A stretch of DNA of 64,000 bases from the NCBI GenBank assembly GCA_964058845.1, contig CAXKVR010000107.1, positions 124,001 through 188,000 of the forward strand. The letters run 5' to 3'. Every line of letters begins with the position of its first letter. The first letter of the stretch is position 1. A program made the translations under genes and the position numbers. The stretch comes from Carex sylvatica. Its lineage: Eukaryota > Streptophyta > Magnoliopsida > Poales > Cyperaceae. The notes beneath the pieces are model-generated. The model saw only the letters and a list, made by a program, of their open reading frames with translations, was not told the DNA's origin and did no database searches. This document shows, in pieces, positions 27,835 through 50,800 of this stretch.

Positions 27835-29938
27835 CTATGCGAGCAATGGTGGATACTGCTTGGCCTGCTGTCGTATCCTTTTGCTATACTCCACTCGGTC
27901 CTGTCAATTTTAACATCCAGTGAAAAATAAATCATCAACAATATTTACCTACTAACAATGATATGAAGGGGAATAATATAATGTTATATTAAAGTAATAA
28001 CCTCTATGAAGATATGATACCCATCTGTCTGGGCTGGATCACTAGGATTGGGCTGATCAAGCAAGTCTTGAATTCCCACCAGGATTTGGTTCACTGTAAT
28101 TGCTGGTCTCCATCCCTGATATATTCATTTCAAAGGTTTTTCAAATAACTTTGGTGTGGAAAGGTCAAGTACAAACGGCTGATAGTGTTGACCTAGCCTG
28201 ACATTCTTGAGCAAGGCCGGTTTGAGTGAAATGGGTTGGGTATGGCTCAGGATCATTTTAAGATGCTGCTAGGCTGTTTGGACTTGATTTTTTTATGATT
28301 CATTAAAATATTTTTGCTGATATAGAAAAGGTCTTGAATCCCAGTGAAAAAATGTATTATTATGATTAAAAGGACAACAAACTACAGGTGAAATATGTAT
28401 TCCAAGACAAAATTTTTTGATAATTTTGCTATGCTGCCTAAACAAGATTTCTTCATATGTCAATGAGCCAAGTCAAACCCCTAACCTATTTTATGCTTAA
28501 TAAAAAACACTGAACTAATCAAATCTGACCCAACCCACTGCCATTCCATATGCACACAGTACCCAAATTTATAATTTATCTCAAAAACTATGTAAAATTT
28601 TACAATTACATCAACAGAGGCAGACACTAGAATTTCAATAAAACTCAGGCTCAGAGAATTAGCATAGCCCTTTGCTGTTTTAACCACCAGAAAGAATGGG
28701 TTAGAACTTACGTAATCTTCATTCAGGATCGAAAGGCAAACAGTGCCAGAAGGGTAGACATTAGGATGGAAGAATCCTTGTGGGAACTTGCACTTCGGAG
28801 GCTTGCTCGGGTAGTCCTCAGAGAACTGTAGAGTTAGTGGGTAATACCCCCCTTCCCAATCAGTCTGGAAAATATAAACCCAATTTTTTACAATTGAAGG
28901 GAAAACAAATTGTGCACTTCATAGCATTGATGAGCTGCGTCAACGTGTACTATATATAAATTTTGGGGTTTGACCAATTAATTAAACTTATATATGTCAC
29001 AAAAGCAAATTCAAGCAAAATAAATTTTCTTGAAAGAGCAATTTAAAGCAAAGGGCATGATGACCTATATTTACTATGCATAAGTAGAGAAATTAGGACT
29101 CCATACATGCTTGTCACAATTGGTTGTGTAAAGTAACATCTAGTACAGAACATCTAGACTGAGAATATACTGGCGCAATCTTCGTTGAAAAGTTGGATGC
29201 AAAAATTAAAACTGGTAAATGCAATTTATGTGCTGTAAAAAGAAAAGAGTGATTTGACCTAATTTCCATGAGCATCAAGGGGTACAAGCAATGCCTAAAC
29301 GATATTGTCCCCTGATCTAGTATTACTTTTTGATTTGTTATGTGTAGCCATACATTAGAGACAAATTATAAGGCAATTTTGGTAATGCATCATATATAAA
29401 TTTGATAAATTGTGGGATTAAATAGCTTTCAAAGCTTCTGAAATCCAACTCCTTAATGCAGCAAATCGATTCCACTAAAAAAGAACCTCTCTTAACTTTA
29501 TAGAATCTTTGTAACTACAAAGATTTCTTCTTTCCTAAAAAAAAAAACTAAAAAACTTCTAAAATCCGTAAATTTTCCTAAAGTATAGTTGCTATTGTGA
29601 TGAACTACATCAGTTCTACAAATCGATACTGAGAAGAAACAAACCGATAGACACATAAATCTCAGAGGATAGAAAATAATTTACTCCTTGTTTTCCTGGT
29701 ATGAGGCAGTTCCAGACCATGAGATTGACTGATCCATCTGGCAACGTCTCAGGCCTTGCCACAAAACCCTACAACAGATTAAATTTAAAACAAAAAATGT
29801 AAATACAACATTCTTTTCTTTTTTTTTATTTAAGAAATGAGAAGGTAAATCAAAGGGAGGGAAGAAAACATGGGGGTGATTCTTGCGCCAAGACTTGCGC
29901 TCTTCGGTGAGTCGACCACGAGCGATACCGCCTGACAT
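27835..29938 (-). CDS. SCE1: SUMO-conjugating enzyme E2 (UBC9/SCE1), copy 1
   Basis: E2 enzyme that takes SUMO from the E1 as a thioester and passes it to substrate lysines, in nucleus and cytosol. Five exons on the minus strand: 29938-29870, 29768-29685, 28864-28712, 28115-28002 and 27900-27835. Together they encode 161 aa (486 bp with stop) with no break, and all junctions are GT-AG. It begins [17 protein letters not shown]. Exon 3 holds FHPN (residues 83-86) and the catalytic cysteine in [13 protein letters not shown] (Cys94). Exon 4 has [19 protein letters not shown]; the C-terminus is KQYPPLLA. Length and exon phases match plant SCE1 proteins. The start is MSGG rather than an upstream TTG. 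It faces the second copy at 42203 head to head. A hAT element sits about 175 bp upstream of the ATG. Confidence 0.96.
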
Positions 29939-32345: not shown

Positions 32346-32354
32346 TTCAATAAG

Positions 32355-32541
32355 CCGACATTTTTAAAAATACCCAAAAAAAAAAAACAAATTATTAAAA
32401 ATAACAGGGTTCCAGCCAAATTTTTAAAAATGCCCTGACCGCCTAAAAATGGGGCGGTCCGGAATTAAAATTCCTAACCGCCTAAAAATGGGGCGGTCCG
32501 GAATTTTAATTCCTGACCGCCTAAAAATGGGGCGGTCCGGG
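32355..32541 (+). repeat. Left TIR of the PMD-MULE, with three internal palindromic repeats
   Basis: Begins CCGACATTTTTAAAAATACC. The inner part repeats a ~36 bp unit three times: CCGCCTAAAAATGGGGCGG (palindromic GCC/GGC ends) followed by GGAATTNNAATTCC-type spacers. Confidence 0.95.
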
Positions 32542-32542
32542 C

Positions 32543-32551
32543 CTATAAATA
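32543..32551 (+). promoter_or_regulatory. TATA box just inside the left TIR
   Basis: CTATAAATA abuts the TIR. About 30 bp downstream begins a CT-rich leader (ctttctctctcctcac), consistent with a TIR-driven promoter for the PMD gene. Confidence 0.6.
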
Positions 32552-32673
32552 ACCCTCCACAGAACTTTCTCTCTCCTCACAATTCATTTTCTAAAAATCT
32601 CACTCTCTCTCCTCCCCACCCGAATTTCTCCTCTTTTTTCTCCTCTCTTCTTCTCTCTTCTTCCAATTTGCAA

Positions 32674-35600
32674 GTAAGTCCCTATATATATTTGAAATTT
32701 CATTTGTAGTGTAAAAAAATTATAGATTAGTCAAATTAAGTTAGTTAGTGCTAATTAGTTATAATTGTGATTATTTAATTACGGTACCAATTTAGTGGTA
32801 ATTAGCATTAATGTAGGTACCAAAAATATTTAAAATTAGTGATAATTATGGTACCAAAGATAGTTTTAATTTTATTTATAATTATGATTATTTTATTACG
32901 GTACAAATTTAGTGGTAATTAGCGTCAATTAGGTACCAAAAATATTTGAAATTAGTGATAATTATGGTACCATAGTTAGTTTTAATTTTATTTTGAATTA
33001 TTTATTCCGAAATTTTGCCGTAATTAGCGTATTTTAGCATAATTTGACCGTAATTAGCATATTTTGAGAAATGTAGTATATTTTTTGTCGTAATTAACGT
33101 AATTTAGCCTATTTTTACCGCAAATATATTGTTTTAGTGTATTTCCGCTTGTTTTAGCATATTTTAGGCGAATAACATTTTTTTTTTATTCTAACGCATT
33201 ATTTTAACATATTTTTACCGAAATTAGCATATTTAGTAAATTTTTGCCATAATTAGCGTATTTTAGCATATTTGACCGTAATTATTGTATTTTATCATAT
33301 TTTAGTATATTTTATCCGAATAACCTTTTTTTTTTCATAGTAACGTAATTTAGCCTCTTTTTACCGCAAATATATTGTTTTAGTGTATTTTCGCTTGTTT
33401 TAGCATATTTTAGGCGAATAACAATTTTTTTTTATTGTAACGCATTATTTTAACATATTTTTACCGAAATTAGCATATTTAGTAAATTTTTGCCATAATT
33501 AGCGTATTTTAGCATATTTGACCGTAATTATTGTATTTTATCATATTTTAGTATATTTTATCCGAATAACCTTTTTTTTTTTCATAGTAACGTAATTTAG
33601 CCTATTTTTACCGCAAATATATTGTTTTAGTGTATTTCCGCTTGTTTTAGCATATTTTAGGCGAATAACAATTTTTTTTTATTGTAACGCATTATTTTAA
33701 CATATTTTTACCGAAATTAGCATATTTAGTAAATTTTTGCCATAATTAGCGTATTTTAGCATATTTGACCGTAATTATTGTATTTTATCATATTTTAGTA
33801 TATTTTATCCGAATAACTTTTTTTTTTTCATAGTAACATAATTTAGCCTATTTTTACCGCAAATATATTGTTTTAGTGTATTTCCGCTTGTTTTAGCATA
33901 TTTTAGGCGAATAACATTTTTTTTTTATTCTAACGCATTATTTTAACATATTTTTACCGAAATTAGCATATTTAGTAAATTTTTGCCATAATTAGCGTAT
34001 TTTAGCATATTTGACCGTAATTATTGTATTTTATCATATTTTAGTATATTTTATCCGAATAACTTTTTTTTTTTCATATTAACGTAATTTAGCCTCTTTT
34101 TACCTCAAATATATTGTTTTAGTGTATTTTCGCTTGTTTTAGCATATTTTAGGCGAATAACATTTTTTTTTTATTCTAACGCATTATTTTAACATATTTT
34201 TACCGAAATTAGCATATTTAGTAAATTTTTGCCATAATTAGCGTATTTTAGCATATTTGACCGTAATTATTGTATTTTATCATATTTTAGTATATTTTAT
34301 CCGAATAACCTTTTTTTTTTCATAGTAACGTAATTTAGCCTCTTTTTACCGCAAATATATTGTTTTAGTGTATTTTCGCTTGTTTTAGCATATTTTAGGC
34401 GAATAACATTTTTTTTTTATTGTAACGCATTATTTTAACATATTTTTACCGAAATTAGCATATTTAGTAAATTTTTGCCATAATTAGCGTATTTTAGCAT
34501 ATTTGACCGTAATTATTGTATTTTATCATATTTTAGTATATTTTATCCGAATAACCTTTTTTTTTTTCATAGTAACGTAATTTAGCCTATTTTTACCGCA
34601 AATATATTGTTTTAGTGTATTTCCGCTTGTTTTAGCATATTTTAGGCGAATAACAATTTTTTTTTATTGTAACGCATTATTTTAACATATTTTTACCGAA
34701 ATTAGCATATTTAGTAAATTTTTGCCATAATTAGCGTATTTTAGCATATTTGACCGTAATTATTGTATTTTATCATATTTTAGTATATTTTATCCGAATA
34801 ACCTTTTTTTTTTTCATAGTAACATAATTTAGCCTATTTTTACCGCAAATATATTGTTTTAGTGTATTTCCGCTTGTTTTAGCATATTTTAGGCGAATAA
34901 CATTTTTTTTTTATTCTAACGCATTATTTTAACATATTTTTACCGAAATTAGCATATTTAGTAAATTTTTGCCATAATTAGCGTATTTTAGCATATTTGA
35001 CCGTAATTATTGTATTTTATCATATTTTAGTATATTTTGTCCGAATAACTTTTTTTTTTTCATATTAACGTAATTTAGCCTATTTTTACCGCAAATATAT
35101 TGTTTTAGTGTATTTCCGCTTGTTTTACCATATTTTAGGCGAATAACATTTTTTTTTATTCTAACGCAAAATTTTAACTGTTTTTTACCGAAATTAGCAT
35201 ATTTAGTAAATTTTTGCCATAATTAACGTATTTTAGCATATTTGACCGTAATTATTGTATTTTATCATATTTTAGTATATTTTGTCCGAATAACCTTTTT
35301 TTTTCATATTAACGTAATTTAGCCTATTTTTACCGCAAATATATTGTTTTAGTGTATTTCCGCTTGTTTTACCATATTTTAGGCGAATAACAATTTTTTT
35401 TTATTGTAACGCATTATTTTAACTGTTTTTTACCGAAATTAGCATATTTAGTAAATTTTTGCCATAATTAGCGTATTTTAGCATATTTGACCGTAATTAT
35501 TGTATTTTATCATATTTTAGTATATTTTGTCCGAATAACCTTTTTTTTTCATATTAACGTAATTTAGCCTATTTTTACCACAAATATATTGTTTTAGTGT

Positions 35601-35741
35601 ATTTCCGCTTGTTTTACCATATTTTAGGCGAATAACAATTTTTTTTTTTATTCTAACGCATTATTTTAACTTTTTTTTTTCTTACTAGGGTAGTTTTGTA
35701 TTTTTTGATATGAATTAGCTTATTTTATTATATTTTAACAG
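32674..35741 (+). other. Predicted leader intron of the PMD gene, containing the tandem array
   Basis: A perfect donor follows the CT-rich leader: caa|gtaagt at 32674. Acceptors lie before the PMD start codon at 35688 (cttactag) and 35741 (ttttaacag). Splicing to either would remove the 246 bp array. The strong T bias of the + strand here fits the U-richness of plant introns. No transcript evidence is available. Confidence 0.5.
33000..35670 (+). repeat. 246 bp tandem array (about 11 units), TTAGYRTATTT-rich
   Basis: The word aggcgaataac recurs at about 33166, 33412, 33659, 33905, 34151, 34397, 34644, 34891, 35137, 35381 and 35626, giving a period of 244-247 bp. Each unit has about six direct copies of TTAGYRTATTT (TTAGCATATTT, TTAGCGTATTT, TTAGTGTATTT, TTAGTATATTT), two T-runs of about 10, and gcgaataac. 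Units are highly similar; the three on the right share small variants (ttaccatatt, ttttgtccg), suggesting recent local amplification. Confidence 0.95.
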
Positions 35742-35769
35742 GAATGAGCTTATTTTAGTCAAATGTAGC

Positions 35770-38758
35770 ATGTCTAATTTTTTTTCCAAACGTAGGATGG
35801 CTAGGGGACGTCCTAGGAGACCACCACCACCCGACCCTATTGATGAGCCCATTCCCGTGGATAGCACGGAGCATTTCAGTCCATTATTATGGATACCTCA
35901 CAGTGAGCATCGAGTCTCACTAGCATCCCGAGAGGTACGTGATTACTTTATTTTTTTCTTTTTTTACGTTAAATTTTTTTAGAGTTCTCATATTTTCAGA
36001 TTTTTATGTTGTTTGTTTTTTTTTCAACGCAGAGTCAGGAGTCTCTAGAAAGCAAGTGTCGGGTTTATGGCATGCAGTACTACCCTCTGATGGACCCGTA
36101 TCTACACAATCTGGGGTTGTACCATTTGGTCGATATATTGGAGACGGAGAGCAAGGCCATTAATGCGTCCCTCATTCAGGGGCTAGTGGAGCGATGGCGC
36201 CCCGAGACACACACATTCCATTTGCCGTTCGGAGAGATGACAGTGACTCTCCAGGACGTGAGTGTCCTTTGGGGTTTGCCTATCCAGGGCGTGCCCATCG
36301 GTGGCATATCTGACCCCACTGACGAGAACATGATTAATGCCAGCCTCGCAGAGCTGTTGGGAGCAGAGCCAGATGTACGTGATAATGGTGGGAGATCGAG
36401 ATTTCATCTGAAGAAGACGGCGCTGCGAGCTCTGTTTGCCGATCGAGGTTTGCATTGGCGATCCACGCAGCATGACATTGAGAGGTACTTTTATAAACCA
36501 TTATATATATATATATATATATATATTTATTTATTTTGTATTTTATTTCATTGCAAAAAATGGGTTGGTCCCTAATTTTGACATTTCAGATACACACGGG
36601 CTTTCGTGATGGACCTATTTGGTTCTGTCATGTTTCCTGATTCGAGCAGTGATGCCATTCCGATTATGTATCTGGAGCTGTTGAGAGACCTTGGGTCATC
36701 AAGAAAGTACAACTGGGGTGGAGCCGTCCTGGCACATCTTTACTCGAACCTGTGCCATGCTTGCAAGGTCAGTATGTTATTGTTGTCTTATTTTTAAAAA
36801 TTAACTTGTTCCGACGTCTAATATTCTTCAAATTGCAGCCTAAAAGTAAGAAGATGTACGGGCCGACACTTCTACTGCAGCATTGGTCGTGGTCGCGCAT
36901 ACCAGTGGCGGTACCCGTGCAGAATGAGTCACTACATTCGGGAGAGCCCGATGATGCATATCACCCGGCATTTGGCAAGAAATGGTACGGGAATCACAGC
37001 TACGTGGACACGCCTCACGGAAAGCCAGCAGGCATCAGGTTGGTCCGTGGTCAGTTGCAGAGTCTGGGTGACACGCAGGTGAGCTGGACTCCGTATGCTG
37101 AGTCATACTGTGAGGGGAGCCTGCCACAGATTATATCAGATGATGAGGAGATGTGGCTCTACAGGGGTCCGCTGATTTGCTTCTGGATAGTGGAGCATCA
37201 CTATCCAGACCGGGTGCTCCGTCAGTTTGGACTTCCTCCACTCATCCCCGCAGATCCAGACATCCCGAGATCTATTATCACGAGGCTACACGGGTACGTA
37301 CAAGTTATGTTTTTCTTGAATTTTGTATTTAATATTAGTTGTTGTAAACACTAATTTGCATGTAACATATTAATTACAGGACGTACCACGGTAATCACGC
37401 CGATAGAGATTGGAGTACGGCTTTCCTGGAGCACTACGACAGAGCAGGGACCATGAGGGAGAACTTGTGGCATATGTCGGAGGATTATGAGACGCAGCTG
37501 CAGGGGTCTCCCCTACTGAGATACCAGGCTTGGTACCTGCGGGTCGGCATGGCATCAGTGTATCTTGAGGGAGATTACGGCAATTATCTCCGCTCCAAGA
37601 TCTTCGAAGATGATGGTTATACTCCCACTGGCAGAAAAGGGGCTCGTGATGTAAGTAATGCACCTAAAACAACTCATTTTGACCATCTTTTTAACCTTTT
37701 TTTTCTAATGTTTCTTATTTTAATTTTTTTAGTTGCTACTAGCGGTTAAAGGTGGAGCACATTCAATCGTTTGTCTTGGAAAGCGTGGCTTCAGGGCTTT
37801 TGGACACACAATGTTGAACTACTTTGCGCCTTGTATTGAGGGCCACGGCCACGAGGCCAAGCTAGTCACGATGCTCAGAGACGCCGGAGAGGACATCGAT
37901 TGGCGCAGAGTACATAGGGATGAGCCCGACGCGCCACCTGTTATGACTGCTGATATGCCACCAGAGCCCGCAGACCAGCCAGAGTGGGACTACCACCGTT
38001 GGGTTCTGGGCATGTCTAGTTGGCACGCCTATTTTGACCAGTATGGACGTCCGTGTCTTCCCCAGGTTCGGTATTATTTATTTTATGTCAAGTTAGTTAA
38101 CATTTTCTCATTCAGTAAAGTAAGTTAGTTAAAATTTATTGAATTATTTGTTTCCTTGCAGGGTCCTGCCTACATGCCGACACAGCCTGAGCACCAGACT
38201 AGATCCCCGGAGCTTTCTCAGGTTCGGTCTTCTTTATTTTATGTCAAGTTAGTTAAAATTTTCTCCTTCAGTAAAGTACGTTAGTTAAAATTTAGTTAGT
38301 TAAAATTTATTGAATTATTTGTATCCTTGCAGGGTCTTGCCTACATTCCGACACAGCCTGAGCACCAGGCTCGATCTCCGGAGATTCAGTCTATGCATGA
38401 GTCTCAGGGCATGGAGTTCAGCCTTGCAGAGCTAGCTCCAGGTGATCAGTGGGATACAGCCGCTTCTCCTGCACCGCATCAGCCGTATCCAGCGAGGGCT
38501 CACGATTGGGAGGCCTCTGGTAGCGGGACTCATCCTGACTTATCCTTGTTTCATACCCCTCTGCCAGCTACACACGCCGCCGAGGATCCATGGGGTACAG
38601 CACTCACGATGAGCAGAGAGCCTGAGCCCGAGGTCGAGATCACACCAGCTCGTGTGGCGCAGGAAGGAGAAGTACAGTGGAATAACTGGCATCGAGTTTT
38701 CACCAGAGAGAACAGAGGCAGACCAGCTGACCGATATTCCGATTCGCGGTATCGTTGA
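35770..38758 (+). CDS. Plant mobile domain (PMD, MAIN/MAIL-type) protein encoded in the MULE
   Basis: Eight exons with consistent phases: 35770-35934, 36033-36484, 36590-36767, 36839-37293, 37380-37650, 37733-38065, 38162-38221, 38333-38758. They total 2,340 bp and 779 aa with no internal stop. The PMD fold is recognised from LYHLVDILETESKAINASL, ERWRPETHTFHLPFGEMTVT and VSVLWGLPIQGVPIG in exon 2, and LLQHWSWSRIPV in exon 4. PMD proteins such as Arabidopsis MAIN and MAIL1 act in the nucleus in gene expression and transposon silencing, and the domain is also carried by plant transposons. The C-terminal third is Pro/acidic and probably disordered. Exons 7 and 8 start with duplicated sequence (AYMPTQPEHQ and AYIPTQPEHQ). 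An alternative start is Met10 (MARGRPRR). The transposon role is unknown. Confidence 0.9.
38062..38400 (+). repeat. Tandem duplication of exon 7 and its flanking introns in the PMD gene
   Basis: The cag|gttcggt donor, the ttattttatgtcaagttag intron and the ccttgcag|ggtc acceptor with the following 45 bp of exon each occur twice (unit about 160 bp). Both copies keep frame and splice sites, so the protein gained a 20-residue repeat. Confidence 0.85.
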
Positions 38759-38984
38759 TAGAGAGTTTTTTTATTGTTTTCTTTGTAGTGTTTTATGTTT
38801 TATTATGTATTATGTACGCTGATAGCTTATTATGATTTTTGTTCTGAGTTTAGCTATGTTTTATGGTAGTATTTATACAACAGAAAAAATAATAAGAGAA
38901 ACACTACATAATTAAGAACAAAAAACATACTAATAGAACCACTAAATCAAAAACAAAAGAACAACAAAAGAACACTAAACAAAA

Positions 38985-39585
38985 AAAACGAGGGTGCAAA
39001 GTTGGGGTCGGAATGAAAACGTCATCAGTTCGGGCTATTTTTGAGCTCTTATATCTCACGATCCGTTCGGAGATTTCGTATGAAACTTTACAGTCCTGTT
39101 TGGAAATGTCAACAATGTATGTCGCTCAATTTTCATAATTTTTGGAGATAGTTTACAAAAAAAACGAGGGTGCAAAGTTGGGGTCGGAATGAAAACGTCA
39201 TCAGTTCGGGCTATTTTTGAGCTCTTATATCTCACGATCCGTTCGGAGATTTCGTATGAAACTTTACAGTCCTGTTTGGAAATGTCAACAATGTATGTCG
39301 CTCAATTTTCATAATTTTTGGAGATAGTTTGCTCCGAGAACGAGTGTGCAAAGTTGGGGTCGGAATGAAAACGTCATCAGTTCGGGCTATTTTTGAGCTC
39401 TTATATCTCACGATCCGTTCGGAGATTTCGTATGAAACTTTACAGTCCTGTTTGGAAATGTCAACAATGTATGTCGCTCAATTTTCATAATTTTTGGAGA
39501 TAGTTTACAAAAAAAACGAGAGTGCAAAGTTGGGGTCGGAATGAAAACGTCATCAGTTCGGGCTATTTTTGAGCTCTTATACCTC
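38985..39585. repeat. 176 bp tandem repeat, about 3.4 copies
   Basis: The word gttggggtcggaatgaaaa recurs at 39001, 39177, 39353 and 39529, a 176 bp period with near identity. It lies between the convergent 3' ends of the two MULE genes. The last partial copy supplies the final codons and stop of the minus-strand transposase fragment. Confidence 0.93.
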
Positions 39586-40093
39586 CCGACACATATATAG
39601 GTGGGATAAAAGGTGGAGATTGTAGTCCGGGTGGGATCAAATGTGGAGGTTGAGGTGAATTACTATATATTTCTGGTTCTGGCGTTGGTTCGGGTACGAA
39701 TATAGGAGTGTGTGGTTCTGCATTTTGTTGATAATTTTCTGCAATATAATTTTGGCCTGAACTTCCAGACCCTGATCCTCTGTGAATCCTGCACGCAAAA
39801 ACTTCGAATCCACTATCACCGGACCTCACAGTCCTGTTGATCAGGCCTCTCAATGCCACGTCATCTCCCAGTGCAATTCTGAGATACCTTCCTCCTTGGA
39901 GCACTCGGGCCATTATTTGTAATTCATAGCGGTTCCTATTGTAGCCGCTCAAATCGTAAATAAGCGTTTGCAACTCCTCAAATGAGAAATTTTCATCAAC
40001 CCAACGCGTATTTACTGGAGGTTTGGAGTAACGTACACCATACTGGTCAGTTGTGAACTTTCCTCCAAAATGTACGAAAATTCCAACAGACAT
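39563..40093 (-). CDS. MuDR-type transposase N-terminal module, truncated (176 aa)
   Basis: Begins MSVGIFVHFGGKFTTDQYG, followed by WVDENFSFEELQTLIYDLSG and LQGGRYLRIALGDDVALRGL. This layout resembles the N-terminal module of plant MULE transposases (MuDR N-terminal/PB1-like). A Pro-rich tail (PEPTPEPEIYSNSPQPPHL) follows, then seven codons from the 176 bp repeat. The DDE catalytic domain and zinc finger are absent, so it cannot be an active transposase; a role as a DNA-binding or regulatory fragment is possible. Upstream on the minus strand are a CT-rich leader, a donor at 40437 (CAG|gtacgt) and an acceptor at 40104, implying a leader intron. Confidence 0.7.
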   Translation of the reverse strand: MSVGIFVHFGGKFTTDQYGVRYSKPPVNTRWVDENFSFEELQTLIYDLSGYNRNRYELQIMARVLQGGRYLRIALGDDVALRGLINRTVRSGDSGFEVFACRIHRGSGSGSSGQNYIAENYQQNAEPHTPIFVPEPTPEPEIYSNSPQPPHLIPPGLQSPPFIPPIYVSGGIRAQK

Positions 40094-40103
40094 GGCCAAT
40101 AAA

Positions 40104-40437
40104 CTACATTAATGAATGGTAAATATTTTGTCAGTTTACCAGTTCCAATTGTATACAGCTGCCATCAGTATTAAACAGTCCTAAATTAATGGTATGTGAA
40201 CAGTTAATATGTACTTATCAATTTGGGTCAACAGTACATACATAAATGAATAGTATGCGAACAACAAATACGTAAGTGAATAGTTTGTCAACATTAAATA
40301 CGTAAGTGAACAGTAAATACGTACATGAACAGTACGTGAACAGTACATACGTAAGTGAACAGTACGTGAACAGTAAATACGTACATTAACAGTACGTGAA
40401 CAGTAAATAAAATATTTAAAAAATAAACAGTACGTAC
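40104..40437 (-). repeat. Minisatellite in the predicted leader intron of the minus-strand MULE gene
   Basis: On the + strand, words such as gaacagtacgtgaacagta and aacagtaaatacgta recur irregularly at about 40270-40430. The region is framed by a donor and acceptor on the minus strand, mirroring the tandem array in the PMD leader intron. Confidence 0.6.
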
Positions 40438-40570
40438 CTGTAGCAGCTCCTTCTCCTTCTCTCTTTCTCTCTCTTTCTCTTTCTCTCTCCCTCTCTTTCT
40501 CTCTCTTTCTCTTTCCCCTTCTCTCTTTCCTCTGGCTGAAGGCACATTCTCCTTATAAGGAAAAACCAGG

Positions 40571-40610
<40 letters not shown>

Positions 40611-40794
40611 CGGACCGCCCCATTTTTAGGCGGTCAGGAATTAAAATTCCGGACCGCCCCATTTTTAGGCGGTTAGGAATTTTAATTCCGGACCGCCCCA
40701 TTTTTAGGCGGTCAGGGCATTTTTAAAAATTTGGCTGGAACCCTGTTATTTTTAATAATTTGTTTTTTTTTTTGGGTATTTTTAAAAATGTCGG
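40571..40794 (-). repeat. Right TIR (40609-40794) with adjacent 38 bp poly(A) tract
   Basis: Complement of the left TIR. The inner edge abuts a 38-nt A run (40571-40608), and a CCTTATAAGG TATA/CArG-like site lies at 40551-40560, suitably placed for a minus-strand promoter. Confidence 0.93.
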
Positions 40795-41395
40795 TTCAAT
40801 AAGCATCGGATCAAATTTGATACTATGTAAGATTATCACAATTCACATGAACAACTATAAAGATTTGTACAAAATCAAATACAGATAAACTTGATGCAAA
40901 TAGAACAGTATTGATCAGGCATCATTCAGTCCAATACTAATCGAAACGCCCCCCACTCTTTTATTATTATAATTTGGACCACATAAGGTTGGTTAGTCGG
41001 CTCCAATTAACTCTAACTGTAGGCTGTCGTCAGATATATGACATTAGACGTGGATCTAACATCATAGCTTTTTTGCGCCTATAATTAAGTGTTAAATTTA
41101 CGGCTCCTAATAAAACTGATAAATAGTACACAACATCAAAATTGAAAAGTGAAGAGAAAGCAAATGTCAAACAACGGGTATTGTATTGAATCGGATTCGG
41201 TCTAATATCCATTCAGAATCATTCAATCTGTATCGAAATTAGCATATTTATCATGTACGTACGAATTTTAAAACGGATCGAGCGACTCTAGCATCAGATC
41301 GTCCCTAACCTATTACACAGAGAATGAGTTCAAGCTAATAATATTTTGCTAAGTCATTAATCACAAGCCGCTAATCCACTAGGTCATGTTTGGTG

Positions 41396-42202: not shown

Positions 42203-45151
42203 ATGTCAGGCGGTATTGCTCGTGGTCGACTCACAGAAGAGCGCAAGTCTTGGCGCAAGAATCACCCCCATGTATTCTCCCCTCCCTTTAATTAGTATGC
42301 TGTTATGTATTTTTCTTGTTTTTAATTTAATCTGTTGTAGGGTTTTGTGGCGAGGCCTGAGACGTTGCCAGATGGATCGGTCAATCTCATGGTCTGGAAC
42401 TGCCTCATACCTGGCAAACAAGCGGTAAGTTCTATCCTCTGAGATTTATGTGTCGATTGGTTTGTTTTTTGTCAGAACTGATTGGGTTTATTACAGACAA
42501 TTATATTTTAGTACAATAATTTCATACACGGAATTTAGAATTTTTTTAGTTATAATGATTCTATAAAGTAAAGTGAAGTTCTTTTTCAGTTGGATCGATT
42601 TGCTGCATAAAGTAGTTGTATTTTAGAAGCCTTTCAATGTTTTTTAGTCATACAATTTATCAAATTTATATCTGTTGATATCTTTGTGGAGTCTGAATAA
42701 CATAATTATTTATTCTTATGAAGATAGATACATATGTTGTACTTGTTTTATATAGACCAAATTTTGCATCTTATAAAATGATTTTTTTACCAAAACTGCC
42801 TTATAATTGTCTCTAAATCTATGGCTACACATAACAAATAAAGAGGTAATACTAGATTTTGGGGATTATATCGTTTAGGCATTGCTGGTACACCTAAGTG
42901 CTCATGGAAATTAGGTCAGATTGCTCTTTTCTTTTTGAAGTTACATAAATTGCATTTACCAGTTTTATTTTTGCATACAACTTCTGAACAAAGATTGCAC
43001 CTGCATATTTTTAGTCTGAGATATTCTCTATTAGATGCAGTTCACATAAGATGTTACTAAACACAATCATATTTTTAGTTTTGGATATTCTCTACAGGTG
43101 CATGGTAAATATAGACGTTGCCCTTTGCTTCGAATTGCTCTTTCAATAAAAAATTATTTTGCTTGAATTTGCTTTTATGGCTCAAACAAGTTTAATTGAT
43201 TAGCCAAACCCCAAAATTACATAAAGCACACATTGACACACAACAATGCTATTTAAGTGTGCAATTTGTTTTCCCTTCAATTGTAAAAATTTGGGTTTAT
43301 ATTTTGCAGACTGATTGGGAAGGGGGTTTTTACCCATTAACTCTACATTTCTCGGAGGACTACCCGAGCAAGCCTCCAAAGTGCAAGTTCCCACAAGGTT
43401 TCTTCCATCCAAATGTCTACCCTTCTGGGACTGTTTGCCTTTCCATCCTGAATGAAGATTATGTAAGTTCTGAACCATTCTTTCCGGTGGTTAAAAGAGC
43501 AAAGTGCAATGCTAATTCTGTGCGCCTGACTCATATCGAAGTTCTATTGTCTGAATTTTGTTGATGCAATTGTTAGCTTTACCTAGTTTTTGAGATGAAT
43601 TATAAATTTGGGTACTGTGTACATATAGGAAGGCAGTGGGTTGGGTCAGATTTGATTAGTTTGGTGTTTTTAATTAAGAATAAAATGGGTTAGGGGTTTG
43701 ACGTGGCTCATTGACATATGAAGAAATCAGGTTTAGGCAGCATAACAAAATTATTAAATTTTGTCTTGTAATACATATTGCACTAGTAATATGTTATCTT
43801 TTTTATCATAATAATATATATTTCAATGGGCTAACTGGGATTGAAGACATTTTCTATCTCAGCAAAAATATTTTTAATGAAGCATAAAAGAATTAGGTCC
43901 AAACAACCTACCAGCACTTTAAAATGATCCTGAGTCAAACCCAACCCATTTAACTCATACCGGCCTTACTCAAGAAGGTCAGGCTGTTCCAACAGGTAAC
44001 CGCTATTTGTACTTGATCTATCCACATCAAAGTTATTTGAAAAACCTTTGAACTGAATATATCAGGGATGGAGACCCGCCATTACAGTGAAGCAAATCCT
44101 GGTGGGAATTCAAGACTTGCTTGATCAGCCCAATCCTAGTGATCCAGCCCAGACAGATGGGTATCAAAGCTACATGCAGGTTATTACTTTATTATAACAG
44201 TATTTTATTTCCCATCATATCATTGTTAGTAGGTAAAGGTGTCAATGGGTACAAACAGTTCGGGTGGAAGCATTTTCATACCCCTTATACGTTAAATTAA
44301 TGAAAAAAAACTTCCACCTTTAACCGTACCCTATCAGCTAATGAAAAAAAACTTAGCCATATGGGCCATACCTGTCTTATCGAATACGGTTCGGGTTGGG
44401 TAAAAGGATAAAAGTGTGCCATTTAATAGATATAAATGGGTCACAGATAAAATTATATCATGTCTTGCATCATCCCCATATAAATATATATATATATATA
44501 ATTTTATAATGAGGAGGGATCGGATGACACACCGTCTATTTTTAAAGTTCAAACGATCGATCCAAACCGTTCAACTTGATGGATATGTTAAACTGTACTT
44601 GCGGATCAAATTTTATATTTTTCGGAATTTTTTTACTATTTATTCAGATGGGTACAAAATTCAACGGTCTGAATATAGCGATTTTGTTAAATACTTAATA
44701 AATAGTAAAAAAATTCCGAAAAATGTAAAATTTGATCTGCAAGCACATTTTAACATATCCATCAAGTTGAATGGTTTGGATCGACCGTTTGGACTTTGGA
44801 AACTTTGAAAATGGACGGTGTCATTCGATGTCACCAAAAAAGGGTGTCATCCGATCCCTCTTTTATAATTTTTATTTTTAATAATTATTGTATAGGGCAA
44901 CTGATATGAAATAAGCCATACCCTTACCCTTTATGTTAACGAAAAAAAAATTTACCCTTAACCGTACTCATCTTTTTAAGTACGATACGGGTTGGGTAAA
45001 TGGATAAAAGGGTACCATTGACTCCCCTATTAGTAGGTATGTATTGTTGATGCTTTTCTTTTTCACTGGATGTTAAATTTGACAGGACCGAGTGGAGTAT
45101 TGCAAGCGGGTGCGGCAGCAGGCCAAGCAGTATCCACCATCACTCGCCTAG
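42203..45151 (+). CDS. SCE1: SUMO-conjugating enzyme E2 (UBC9/SCE1), copy 2
   Basis: Exons 42203-42271, 42341-42424, 43310-43462, 44066-44179 and 45086-45151 give 161 aa in one frame. Exon sizes (69, 84, 153, 114, 66 bp) are identical to copy 1. It has the FHPN motif and the catalytic cysteine in [13 protein letters not shown] (Cys94). Differences from copy 1 include KQA for KQG at the exon 2 end, TVKQ for TVNQ, GYQSYMQ for GYHIFIE, and the tail [15 protein letters not shown] in TVKQ is the usual plant residue, so copy 2 does not look defective. Introns 1-3 and the leader (ccaaaacgaccatcaca-like, gtttgctgATG) remain alignable with copy 1, indicating a relatively recent inverted segmental duplication. 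Intron 4 contains nested transposons. Confidence 0.96.
44234..45029. mobile_element. hAT non-autonomous element in SCE1 copy 2 intron 4
   Basis: Ends TAAAGGTGTCAATGG (from 44233) and CCATTGACTCCCCTA. A perfect 8 bp duplication TTAGTAGG lies at 44226-44233 and 45030-45037. It is interrupted by the MITE at 44511-44860. A related end (aaggtgtcaatgggtacg) occurs near 53035. Confidence 0.85.
44511..44860. mobile_element. MULE-type hairpin MITE nested in the hAT element
   Basis: TIRs gagggatcggatgacac and its complement. A perfect 9 bp duplication TTTTATAAT lies at 44502-44510 and 44861-44869. The core contains cgatccaaaccgttcaactt and the mirrored hairpin arm. Confidence 0.9.
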
Positions 45152-47894: not shown

Positions 47895-50800
47895 TCAACT
47901 AACCATTCCAAGTTGTGCTCGTATTTCTTCAAACTTTCCAACATTTAGTCCTTTTGTGAATATGTCTGCAACTTGCTCTTCTGTCGGTATCAACTTCATG
48001 TGAATCTCACCTTGCAGGACTTTCTGTCGTATGAAGTGGTAATGTACTTCTATATGTTTAGTCCTTGCATGGAACACCGGATTCTCTGCAAGACATACGG
48101 CTGACATGTTGTCACATGAAGTGTACTTGATCGATTGGTTGATGGAGATCCTTCAATAAACGTATCAACCACGTGCTCTCTTTGCTGCCATAGCCGCTGC
48201 TCGGTACTCTGCTTTGGTTGTTGAGAGTGACACAGTAGGTTGTCTCTTGCTGCACCAGGACACGGCTCCTGATCCTAAACTAAAGACATAACCTGTTGTT
48301 GATCGCCTCGTATCATAGTCTCCAACATAGTCAGCGTCGCAGTAACCCGTCACTTGGAATTTTCCTCTTTTGTGGTACATTATGCCATAGTCCAAAGTAC
48401 CATTTATGTATCGGAGTATCCTCTTGATAGCTTCAAGATGTGGTTTCTTTGGGCTCTGCATATGACGGCTTGCTACTCCAACTGCATAGGCGATGTCAGG
48501 TCGAGTAAGCGTAAGATAGATAAGACTACCCACCAATTGTTGATATATCATTGTATCTTCTAAATCTTTTCCTTCTTCAGTGCGAAGCTTGATGTTAGGC
48601 TCCATTAGTGTCGATAATGGTTTGCACTCCAATATGCCATAAGTCTCTAAAAGAACTTTTGCATACTTGTGCTGGCATAGGAAGATACCTTCTTTTGTCT
48701 TCTCTACCTCGAGTCCTAGGAAAGGCTTCAGCACTCCAAGCTCCTTTATCTGAAACCGGACTGATAGGTTCTCCTTTATTTGTTGAATCTCCTGAGTAAG
48801 GTCTCCGGTCAAGATGAGGTCGTCCACATATACCAAGATTATAGTGAGCTTACCTCCCACGTCTTTAATGAATAGGCTGGAGTCTGATATTGCCACTGTG
48901 TAGCCACTTTATACGAGAAACTTTACAATTTTCCCATACCATGCTCTTGGAGCCTGCTTTAGCCCGTACAATGCCTTCTTGAGCTTGCACACGTACTCTG
49001 GGTGGGTCTTTCTTTCGAACCCTTGCGGTTGATCTATGTAGATGTCTCGATCAAGCTCACCGTATAGAAATACATTTTTCACATCCATCTGCCATAACTT
49101 CCAGCTTTTGTTTGCTGCTAGCGCTAGAAGGACTCGTATTGTTGTTATCTTTGCCACCATACTAAATGTCTCGTCATAGTCCAGTCCATACTGCTGTGAA
49201 AATCCTCGTGCGACAAGTCTAGCCTTGCACCTTTCGATTGAACCATCTGCTCGGGTCTTCACCTTATACACCCACTTACATGAGATTGGCTTTACTCCTT
49301 CTAGCTTGGGCATCAGATCTCATGCCTGGTTCTGGCTTAGTGCTGTCATCTCCTCCTCCATTTCTTTTCTCTATTTGCCACTCTTGGCTGCTTCTACATA
49401 GTTTGCTGGCTCCGAGTCTTCGATAAGGATAACATTTGTGTACTTTGGTTTTGGTCGCCTTTGTCTTAATGACCTTCGTTGTGGATGAGGCATTTCCTCA
49501 ACTTCTTCTGAAAGATCTAGAATTGCATCTTCACTAAGTTCGTGTACTCCAGTTTTTCACAGACTCTTGGCCTTTGGGGAGGTTAATTTTTCTTCTTCCT
49601 CATTTGCCTCTGGATATTTATGGTTTTGATCTCTTATCATCTCTTCACATCTTGCTTCTAGATCTCCCGAGTCAGATTTGATTGTGTCTTTGGATGGCCA
49701 CCATGTTGAAGCTTCATCAAACACCACATTTCTTGAAGTGTAAATGCGTCCACTTGTTGGTTCACAACACCTCTAGCCCTTTCGCTGCTCGTCATAACCG
49801 ACAAAGATGCATCGTATTGCCTTCTTATTGAATTTTGTTCGCAGATGGTCAAGCACAAACACATAGCGCACATATCCAAAAACTCGGAAATGTTTTATAA
49901 TGGGTTTGATCTTCCATAGTTTCTGGAATGGTGAGACAAAACCCATCTTCTCATGCGGTAGCCGATTGATAATGTAGGTCACGATTCTCATGCTCTCGGC
50001 CCAAAACCTCCCTGGCACATTTTTGGCTTGTAGCATGCTTCGGAAAACTTCTGCTAAGTGTCGGTTCTTCCTTTCAGCTACACCATTTTGTTGAGGGGTG
50101 TTAGGGCAAGTTAGTTGTCTATTGATCTTGTGCTTCTTTAGGTATGCTTCAAACTTGTGAGACACATACTCTCTTCCATTATCCGTAGAAGGCACTTCAC
50201 TTTCTTGTTGAGTTCACTCTCCACATTCTCTTTGAATTATTTGAATTTGGTGAATGTCTCAGATCTCTCATTCAAGAAGAATATCCACACGTACCTCGAG
50301 AAGTCATCAATAAAAGTCACCATATACTTGGACCTGCTTATTAATCATTGTCTTACGGGACCAAAAATATCTAAGTGCACCAGCTCCAAAGCCTTCATTG
50401 CTCGATACTTTGACGTTTGGTAGGAAAATTGGTGAGCTTTACCGAATTGACAGCCAGCACATATGGTGTTAGTCTGAATCTCAACTTCAGGTAAGTCTGC
50501 GACCATCGACTGCTCGATCGTTAACTTCAACTTGTGATAGCTTACATGCCTCATTCATGCGTGCTAGAGATCAGCTGTCTCGTTCCTCCGAGTCTTATCC
50601 ACGTACGCCGATTCTGCTGTCATTACGTAGATTGACTCTAATTTTTATCCCTCCATTATTGGTGTGCCTGAAGCTTTAAGATTGCGATAGACTTGTACTT
50701 CTTGCGGCCCAAATAACATGTAGTTTTCTTACGCAGTCAGTTGCGAAACTGATAGTAGATTCTTCTTCATGCCGGGGACATGATAGACTCCATGTAGTTG

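Follow-up and report, generated by a model that had tools for sequence, protein, structure and literature searches.

What does a plant mobile domain (PMD) gene do for the transposon that carries it? The question is raised by a Mutator-like element (MULE) at 32355-40794 of a 64,000-nt stretch of the Carex sylvatica genome (assembly GCA_964058845.1, contig CAXKVR010000107.1, positions 124,001-188,000, forward strand), hereafter the window, to which all coordinates refer. A first-pass annotation, which our results support in part, took the element to be built around its PMD gene. Instead, it is a deletion copy of a family that encodes both PMD and the MURA transposase, and we see an even chance that, in this presumably MURA-dependent copy, PMD is an anti-silencing protein with the DNA-binding fold of the VANC proteins, acting on a tandem array in the element's own DNA. 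The molecular role of the plant mobile domain is open: whether the host proteins MAIN and MAIL1, or their complex, touch DNA is posed as a question by Nicolau 2020 (PMC7156037) and again in 2023 (PMC9899485). A fold match of PMD relatives to the VANC21-DNA structure, together with a common array in front of a PMD gene under selection, supplies a concrete protein, a concrete candidate DNA target and a simple assay, and makes a published speculation about transposon-borne PMDs testable.

The element is real and MUDR-like in class, with PMD convergent to what is left of MURA. Alignment of its terminal inverted repeats (TIRs; 32355-32541 on the plus and 40608-40794 on the minus strand) runs end to end over about 186 bases with a single indel in an A-run (99.5% identity over 187), and a repeat scan of the left TIR finds 2.7 copies of a 39-bp repeat. 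Comparison of the flanks shows the target site duplication (TSD) TTCAATAAG matching at 9/9 positions (32346-32354 and 40795-40803), so the perfect 9-bp duplication and near-identical TIRs first noted are borne out. MULEs are recognised by TIRs with TSDs of 8-11 bp, and all 13 complete elements whose TSDs we read have both (9 bp in eight, 8 bp in five, the eight-base ones read with an offset of one from a fixed nine-position comparison; C265, C335 and C181 were not among the 13). The insertion had been called young, and it does appear to be. Since MULE TIRs may differ already at insertion, this is better supported by the family than by TIR identity: the 8- or 9-bp TSDs are identical in 13/13 complete elements, and PMD exons are mostly 98-100% identical.

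We searched the window's own genome (64 Mb, 950 contigs) for the family. The TIR matched at least 78 times, strongly in 40 cases (E<=4.4e-61) and otherwise through weaker pairings of its inner repeats; this is a lower bound, since the best 40 of 321 candidates were scored. Further TIR-bounded copies with PMD, which the first-pass annotation had proposed to look for, were found: the window element and 12 further TIR pairs were compared, PMD exons are present in 13/13, and C265 was later added to give 14 elements. The other strand of the siblings, antisense to PMD, contains long open frames (665, 280 and 157 aa), which in C473 match the Pfam families MULE transposase domain (2.8e-17), DBD_Tnp_Mut (4e-7) and SWIM (9.8e-7). 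All three MURA frames are whole in 6/13 elements and nearly whole in C238; the first is interrupted by a stop in C321 and a deletion in C221, and C116 is without any MURA frame. In the window, C336 and C56a the sole frame has 181 aa, and MURA makes up about 171 of its codons, counted from the ATG. In the window this is the minus-strand open reading frame 39563-40099, which has no Pfam match and hence no DDE transposase domain, as had been claimed. Over its first 519 of 540 bases the frame agrees at 99.4-100% identity with the beginning of MURA in eight full-length siblings, and over 450 bases it matches C221 at 100%; comparison with the siblings sets the gene remnant, the N-terminal part alone, at 39581-40093 (minus strand, ATG at 40093).

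The deletion junction, at about 39579-39585, has one and the same sequence in three copies (the window, C336 and C56a) and is lacking in the remaining 11/14 elements, while the TSDs of the three copies differ from one another. The deletion derivative has therefore moved since it arose, and this requires transposase in trans. The window element is an internal-deletion derivative of a two-gene MURA+PMD MULE family and not a PMD-only element.

The pairing of the two genes was followed across the genome. Exon 4 of PMD matches 30 loci at 95% identity or more (best 40 of 97 candidates scored), and a 1-kb MURA probe matches at least 27 loci, one of them in two pieces, at the same threshold (40 candidates scored); loci were paired by hand on contig, strand and a distance within about 15 kb, both lists being lower bounds. 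A convergent MURA stands beside 24/30 of the PMD loci. The six without one are the window, C336, C56a, C116, C31 (at 179 kb) and C942, the last two judged from match lists rather than fetched sequence, and three MURA loci (C335, C499, C767) have no PMD exon-4 match. At C158:69977-92109 a 22-kb stretch lies between both TIRs with MURA in two pieces, probably through a nested insertion.

The PMD gene itself (35797-38758, plus strand) has eight coding exons with GT-AG borders (35797-35934, 36033-36484, 36590-36767, 36839-37293, 37380-37650, 37733-38065, 38162-38221 and 38333-38758). The eight exons and the single open frame of the initial prediction stand; the length in our splice model is 770 aa rather than 779. 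Pfam recognises PMD at residues 85-400 (E=1.5e-67) and no other family at E<=0.001. The starts of exons 7 and 8 (38162-38221 and 38333-38386) hold a duplicated stretch of about 89-91% identity, and this exon duplication is missing in C116. We read PMD in 16 copies, 11 of them intact and five broken (C282, C238, C116, C265, C201). Split PMD matches had raised the possibility of a different PMD in a second TIR subfamily; this was ruled out, as C265, C645 and C201 belong to the same family.

The PMD gene of the family is under purifying selection. For exons 1-6, the ratio of nonsynonymous to synonymous divergence (dN/dS) between the window and diverged copies is 0.337 (C3), 0.386 (C444), 0.444 (C93) and 0.490 (C116b), with Fisher p values of 4e-19 to 7e-6, in line with the value below 1 anticipated at the outset; in the PMD domain, against C3, it is 0.274. 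Five diverged loci had been taken, and C38 was dropped as only parts of its exons 3-4 aligned. Because the diverged copies are partly decayed, these values are pushed upward, and the ten pairs among the five PMD sequences range from 0.337 to 0.711. Distinct changes among the 11 intact copies of the family number 20 synonymous and 35 nonsynonymous, a ratio of 0.52 (p=0.02). Capture of gene pieces is common in MULEs, and PMD could be such a passenger, a captured piece of a host gene that does nothing for the element. This we find scarcely credible, given the purifying selection and the MURA adjoining PMD at most loci. Likewise, full-length siblings and dN/dS rule out a PMD-only element or a Pack-MULE: a Pack-MULE would have a captured host piece free of coding selection in a family without a transposase gene, and here dN/dS is 0.34-0.49.

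For MURA, dN/dS between the window and C3 and C444 is 0.363 and 0.384. The synonymous divergence of these two copies from the window family is 0.45-0.48 for PMD and lower, 0.29-0.31, for MURA; exchange between families or different mutation pressure may be the cause. PMD and MURA are under selection of like strength, and this, with the retention of MURA at 24 of the 30 PMD loci, would suit a transposition cofactor that aids MURA in cutting or integration and has nothing to do with silencing. In the Mutator system mudrB lies convergent to mudrA. PMD would then take the position of mudrB, likewise an extra gene beside the transposase gene and apparently required for integration (PMC6446971). A cofactor, however, has no need for a VANC-like DNA-binding fold and leaves unexplained why an array is tied to the PMD gene; we consider this explanation unlikely.

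The array lies in front of the PMD coding part. A TATA box (CTATAAATA, at 32543) follows the left TIR and, judging by the splice signals, the gene would have a non-coding leader exon (32543-32673, plus strand, ending at the donor GTAAGT) and a 3.1-kb leader intron (32674-35795, plus strand), with the acceptor AG one base before the ATG. TATA box, donor and acceptor position are kept in 14/14 elements, and the intron is 1.1-3.4 kb long among them. In the window, 33081-35678 (plus strand) is a tandem array with a 246-bp higher-order repeat of about 29/30-bp and about 10-bp units (TTAGCATATT), a candidate target of the PMD protein. The motif TTAGC(A/G)TATT occurs in the window intron 39 times in sense and 0 times in antisense orientation (300 shuffles: mean 0.4, maximum 3), and another submotif 12 times versus once.

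Five other loci with an array before PMD served for comparison. Judged by exons 1-2, C93, C156 and C34 are 88-92% identical among themselves and about 88% identical with the window; for C116b and C220 the values are 95% to each other and 79-81% to the window. Besides the window's, these are two lineages, not five. Tandem Repeats Finder, run with relaxed settings on each array separately, returned 10- to 30-bp units that match only about 51-61% within an array. Up to rotation, a common 29/30-bp unit was found in the window, C93, C116b, C156 and C220, the 10-bp unit TTAGCATATT in C34 and its rotated form in the window; the long period measures 246 for the window array, 107-108 for C93, C116b and C34, 85 for C156 and 59 for C220. 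G/C positions recur with a period of 9.7-9.8 in the five non-window arrays, at a power of 33-45 where 60 dinucleotide shuffles of each array reach 8.7-10.8 at most. In the window the array has its peak at 12.3, and power in the 10-bp band is 20.7, above the 8.4 that is the highest value among shuffles; one 246-bp unit taken singly peaks at 9.9. The period being 9.7-9.8 and not 10.5, we do not claim exact helical phasing.

A search for a 28-mer from the unit, allowing at most three mismatches, gave 190 matches in the genome (139 forward, 51 reverse; reversed control 0). Places listed without an earlier PMD match include C34, C156, C220, C289, C96, C916, C150 and C526; four such places were fetched, and 3/3 readable ones run into a PMD gene, that of C34 with a large internal deletion, while the fourth stops at a contig end. 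C3 and C444 retain just a short stretch of array followed by other sequence. Observed/expected CpG is 2.43 in the window intron, 2.63 in the C15 array, 2.0 in C93 and 1.3 in C116b, and falls to 0.6 in the remnants of C3 and C444 and 0.6-0.9 in flanks. The window array intron is CpG-rich at 23% GC, which is unusual for methylated, decaying DNA.

The genome holds at least 143 PMD matches, counted exon by exon. L001, L005 and L006 (contigs C332, C309 and C9) represent two or more additional PMD families, which differ in their terminal repeats, have leader introns of their own and are probably MULEs too. The DNA upstream of L001 and L006 resembles the end of a MULE in its repeated TIR units and its leader intron, and contains neither the motif of the window array nor the period of about 10 bp.

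Could the array be no target at all, but an intronic stretch, grown by slippage, that enhances expression of the PMD gene or assists its splicing, with any DNA binding by PMD directed elsewhere? It does lie in a leader intron with a kept donor, a kept acceptor and a branch-like CTAAT, and it is U-rich and nearly one-stranded in both submotifs (39 to 0 and 12 to 1). MURA also seems to have a leader intron (40104-40437, minus strand), with 30-bp repeats of its own that differ from the array and show no 10-bp period. However, the phase of about 10 bp persists in five arrays of two other lineages though the other introns of the gene vary in length, and splicing does not need a CpG content 2.4 times expectation. 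We therefore judge an array serving expression alone to be rather improbable.

The reading of PMD as a DNA-binding protein draws on its fold. Predicted structures of two PMD relatives match the fold of the VANC21-DNA structure 9lnj, which gives the earlier comparison 'in logic to VANC' a structural basis at the level of models. On these predictions the window PMD would share the VANC fold and would most probably be a protein that binds DNA through it. The array, too, is of the kind expected for VANC, consisting of short motifs in tandem repeats of the element's noncoding DNA: VANC21 binds YAGTATTAY, and its targets are tandem repeats in noncoding DNA that vary between related elements (Hosaka 2017, PMC5735166). 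The window PMD differs from VANC21 and VANC6 in that no sequence similarity was found, the motif is another and the TIRs of its element are long; an exact match to the VANC21, VANC6 or Arabidopsis DOWN motif was sought in the six arrays and rejected. A search of a viral structure library gave no match at E<=0.001. DUF1985 is a mark of VANC proteins, and the genome has three matches to it, all below the cut-off.

The same protein could, instead of binding the element, act as a decoy of host MAIN/MAIL1, joining or poisoning the PMD-PP7L complex and so weakening silencing in trans. Host MAIN, MAIL1 and PP7L act in transposon silencing, and an anti-silencing use of captured PMDs has already been speculated on (Ikeda 2017, PMC5418596). 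But a tree of 38 rows places the window PMD next to Carex proteins inside a Poales set, apart, with support 100/98, from the set that holds the eudicot MAIN-, MAIL2- and MAIL3-like rows, and it is therefore no recent copy of those proteins; the rows include no labelled PMD-A, PMD-B or grass MAIL2 reference. The closest proteins among 7,987 candidates scored (those with most shared words) are again from Carex, at 39-52% identity over 31-77% of the query. The host proteins (PMC7156037) have the PMD domain in common with the window protein but are products of host genes, the MAIN-, MAIL2- and MAIL3-like rows fall in another clade of this tree, and their DOWN motif, CATGCAGTTT, is absent from the six arrays compared. 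A decoy, for which the target array would be superfluous, strikes us as improbable.

In the model of PMD as a VANC-fold anti-silencer, the window copy would move with MURA supplied in trans by full-length siblings, as the three copies with one junction and different TSDs suggest. The element would make its own PMD protein, which would bind the approximately 10-bp repeats in the PMD leader intron of that element; by analogy with VANC21 in VANDAL21, this binding may keep the MULE family from being silenced. The model builds on the anatomy of the element, its family, purifying selection, the common array and the fold match of two PMD relatives; the fold of the window PMD, its DNA binding, the array as target and the loss of silencing are steps that we infer. 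We also propose, with somewhat less than even confidence, that PMD and VANC form one superfamily of transposon-encoded, sequence-specific DNA-binding anti-silencers, each PMD-MULE having its own target array, and that host MAIN and MAIL1 put the same fold to host use. If true, MULE-encoded anti-silencing would extend well beyond VANDALs, and one DNA-binding fold would be common to host silencing factors and transposon anti-silencers.

Several observations weigh against this model. The fold match is at 10% identity and concerns relatives, not the spliced window protein; Foldseek returned no VANC21 among its 13 matches at E<=10, and sequence-profile and PDB sequence searches gave no VANC match and nothing relevant. 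The motif of the array matches that of VANC21 at 6/9 positions, a chance level reached or exceeded by 32% of random 10-mers. Since the arrays are homologous between loci (66-86% identity), their likeness is partly plain descent, and the array is also a U-rich intron that could serve splicing or expression. Its unit is common to lineages at a synonymous divergence of 0.23-0.37 from the window, whereas VANC targets diverge rapidly, competing with RNA-directed DNA methylation (Sasaki 2023, PMC10398659). On the side of the gene, one of the ten pairs of diverged copies (C93-C116b) has a dN/dS of 0.71. C335 keeps PMD exons 1-2 and MURA, perhaps minus its last codons, and has lost PMD exons 3-8, and C181, 2.7 kb long, lacks every PMD exon and has just 148 bases from the MURA start; PMD is therefore usual, yet not indispensable in every copy. 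Finally, PMD in MURA-less copies looks relaxed: private changes in the MURA-less lineage number 0 synonymous and 8 nonsynonymous, where copies with MURA have 20 and 27 (Fisher p=0.04, or 0.01 without C56b), small numbers under a split chosen post hoc. The window copy may thus no longer be under selection for PMD; the split hints that this selection is tied to MURA-bearing copies, and it speaks against the window copy as a selected silencing-cargo element.

Part of this picture is known already. Most members of MULE groups 47-50 carry PMD, and for the greater part of MUDR it is antisense (PMC6446971, 2019). These MUDR-type elements resemble the window family in long TIRs, 8-10-bp TSDs and a MURA with MULE DDE and SWIM domains, PMD being on the opposite strand; the window copy differs in having lost MURA, and the accessible text of PMC6446971 mentions no array in a leader intron, no selection on PMD and no PMD fold. 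VANDAL is listed there with 'PMD and/or DUF in half the members' and as lacking TIRs or having short degenerate ones, yet with 46-174 bp given for some of the group; the window TIRs are long (187 bp). According to Ikeda 2017 (PMC5418596), MULEs captured PMD-C, described as fused to the transposase in grasses and Amborella, and the paper calls it 'tempting to speculate' on an anti-silencing use; MULE-borne PMD is common to both cases, fused there and a separate convergent gene here. Because these two papers have them in print, the convergent arrangement and the anti-silencing idea are not new. What appears to be new is the reading of PMD as having a VANC fold, on the strength of predicted structures, with a VANC-like candidate target array in front. 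A search of titles and abstract openings, with preprints and many subscription papers outside its reach, found no paper that links PMD to the VANC fold and, within the same limits, none that tests selection on MULE-borne PMD. PMD proteins reportedly act with DNA motifs against Polycomb silencing, in a recent report that a literature search on PMD and Polycomb did not find, and DNA binding by PMD may be known already. Two meeting reports mention a then unpublished VANC21 structure; PMD is not named in their accessible text.

Between the PMD and MURA genes, at 38979-39589, lies a 176-bp tandem repeat of 3.5 copies. Scans of the whole window with Rfam (gathering threshold) and for tRNAs gave no match. 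The element is flanked by two inverted UQ_con (ubiquitin-conjugating-enzyme-like) frames at 28484-28918 (minus strand) and 43196-43561 (plus strand), which sit in an inverted duplication whose arms are about 85% identical along 1.5 kb. Further downstream, 48168-50213 (minus strand) is a copia-type retrotransposon remnant with broken frames (RVT_2, retroviral SH3-like and a weak rve match).

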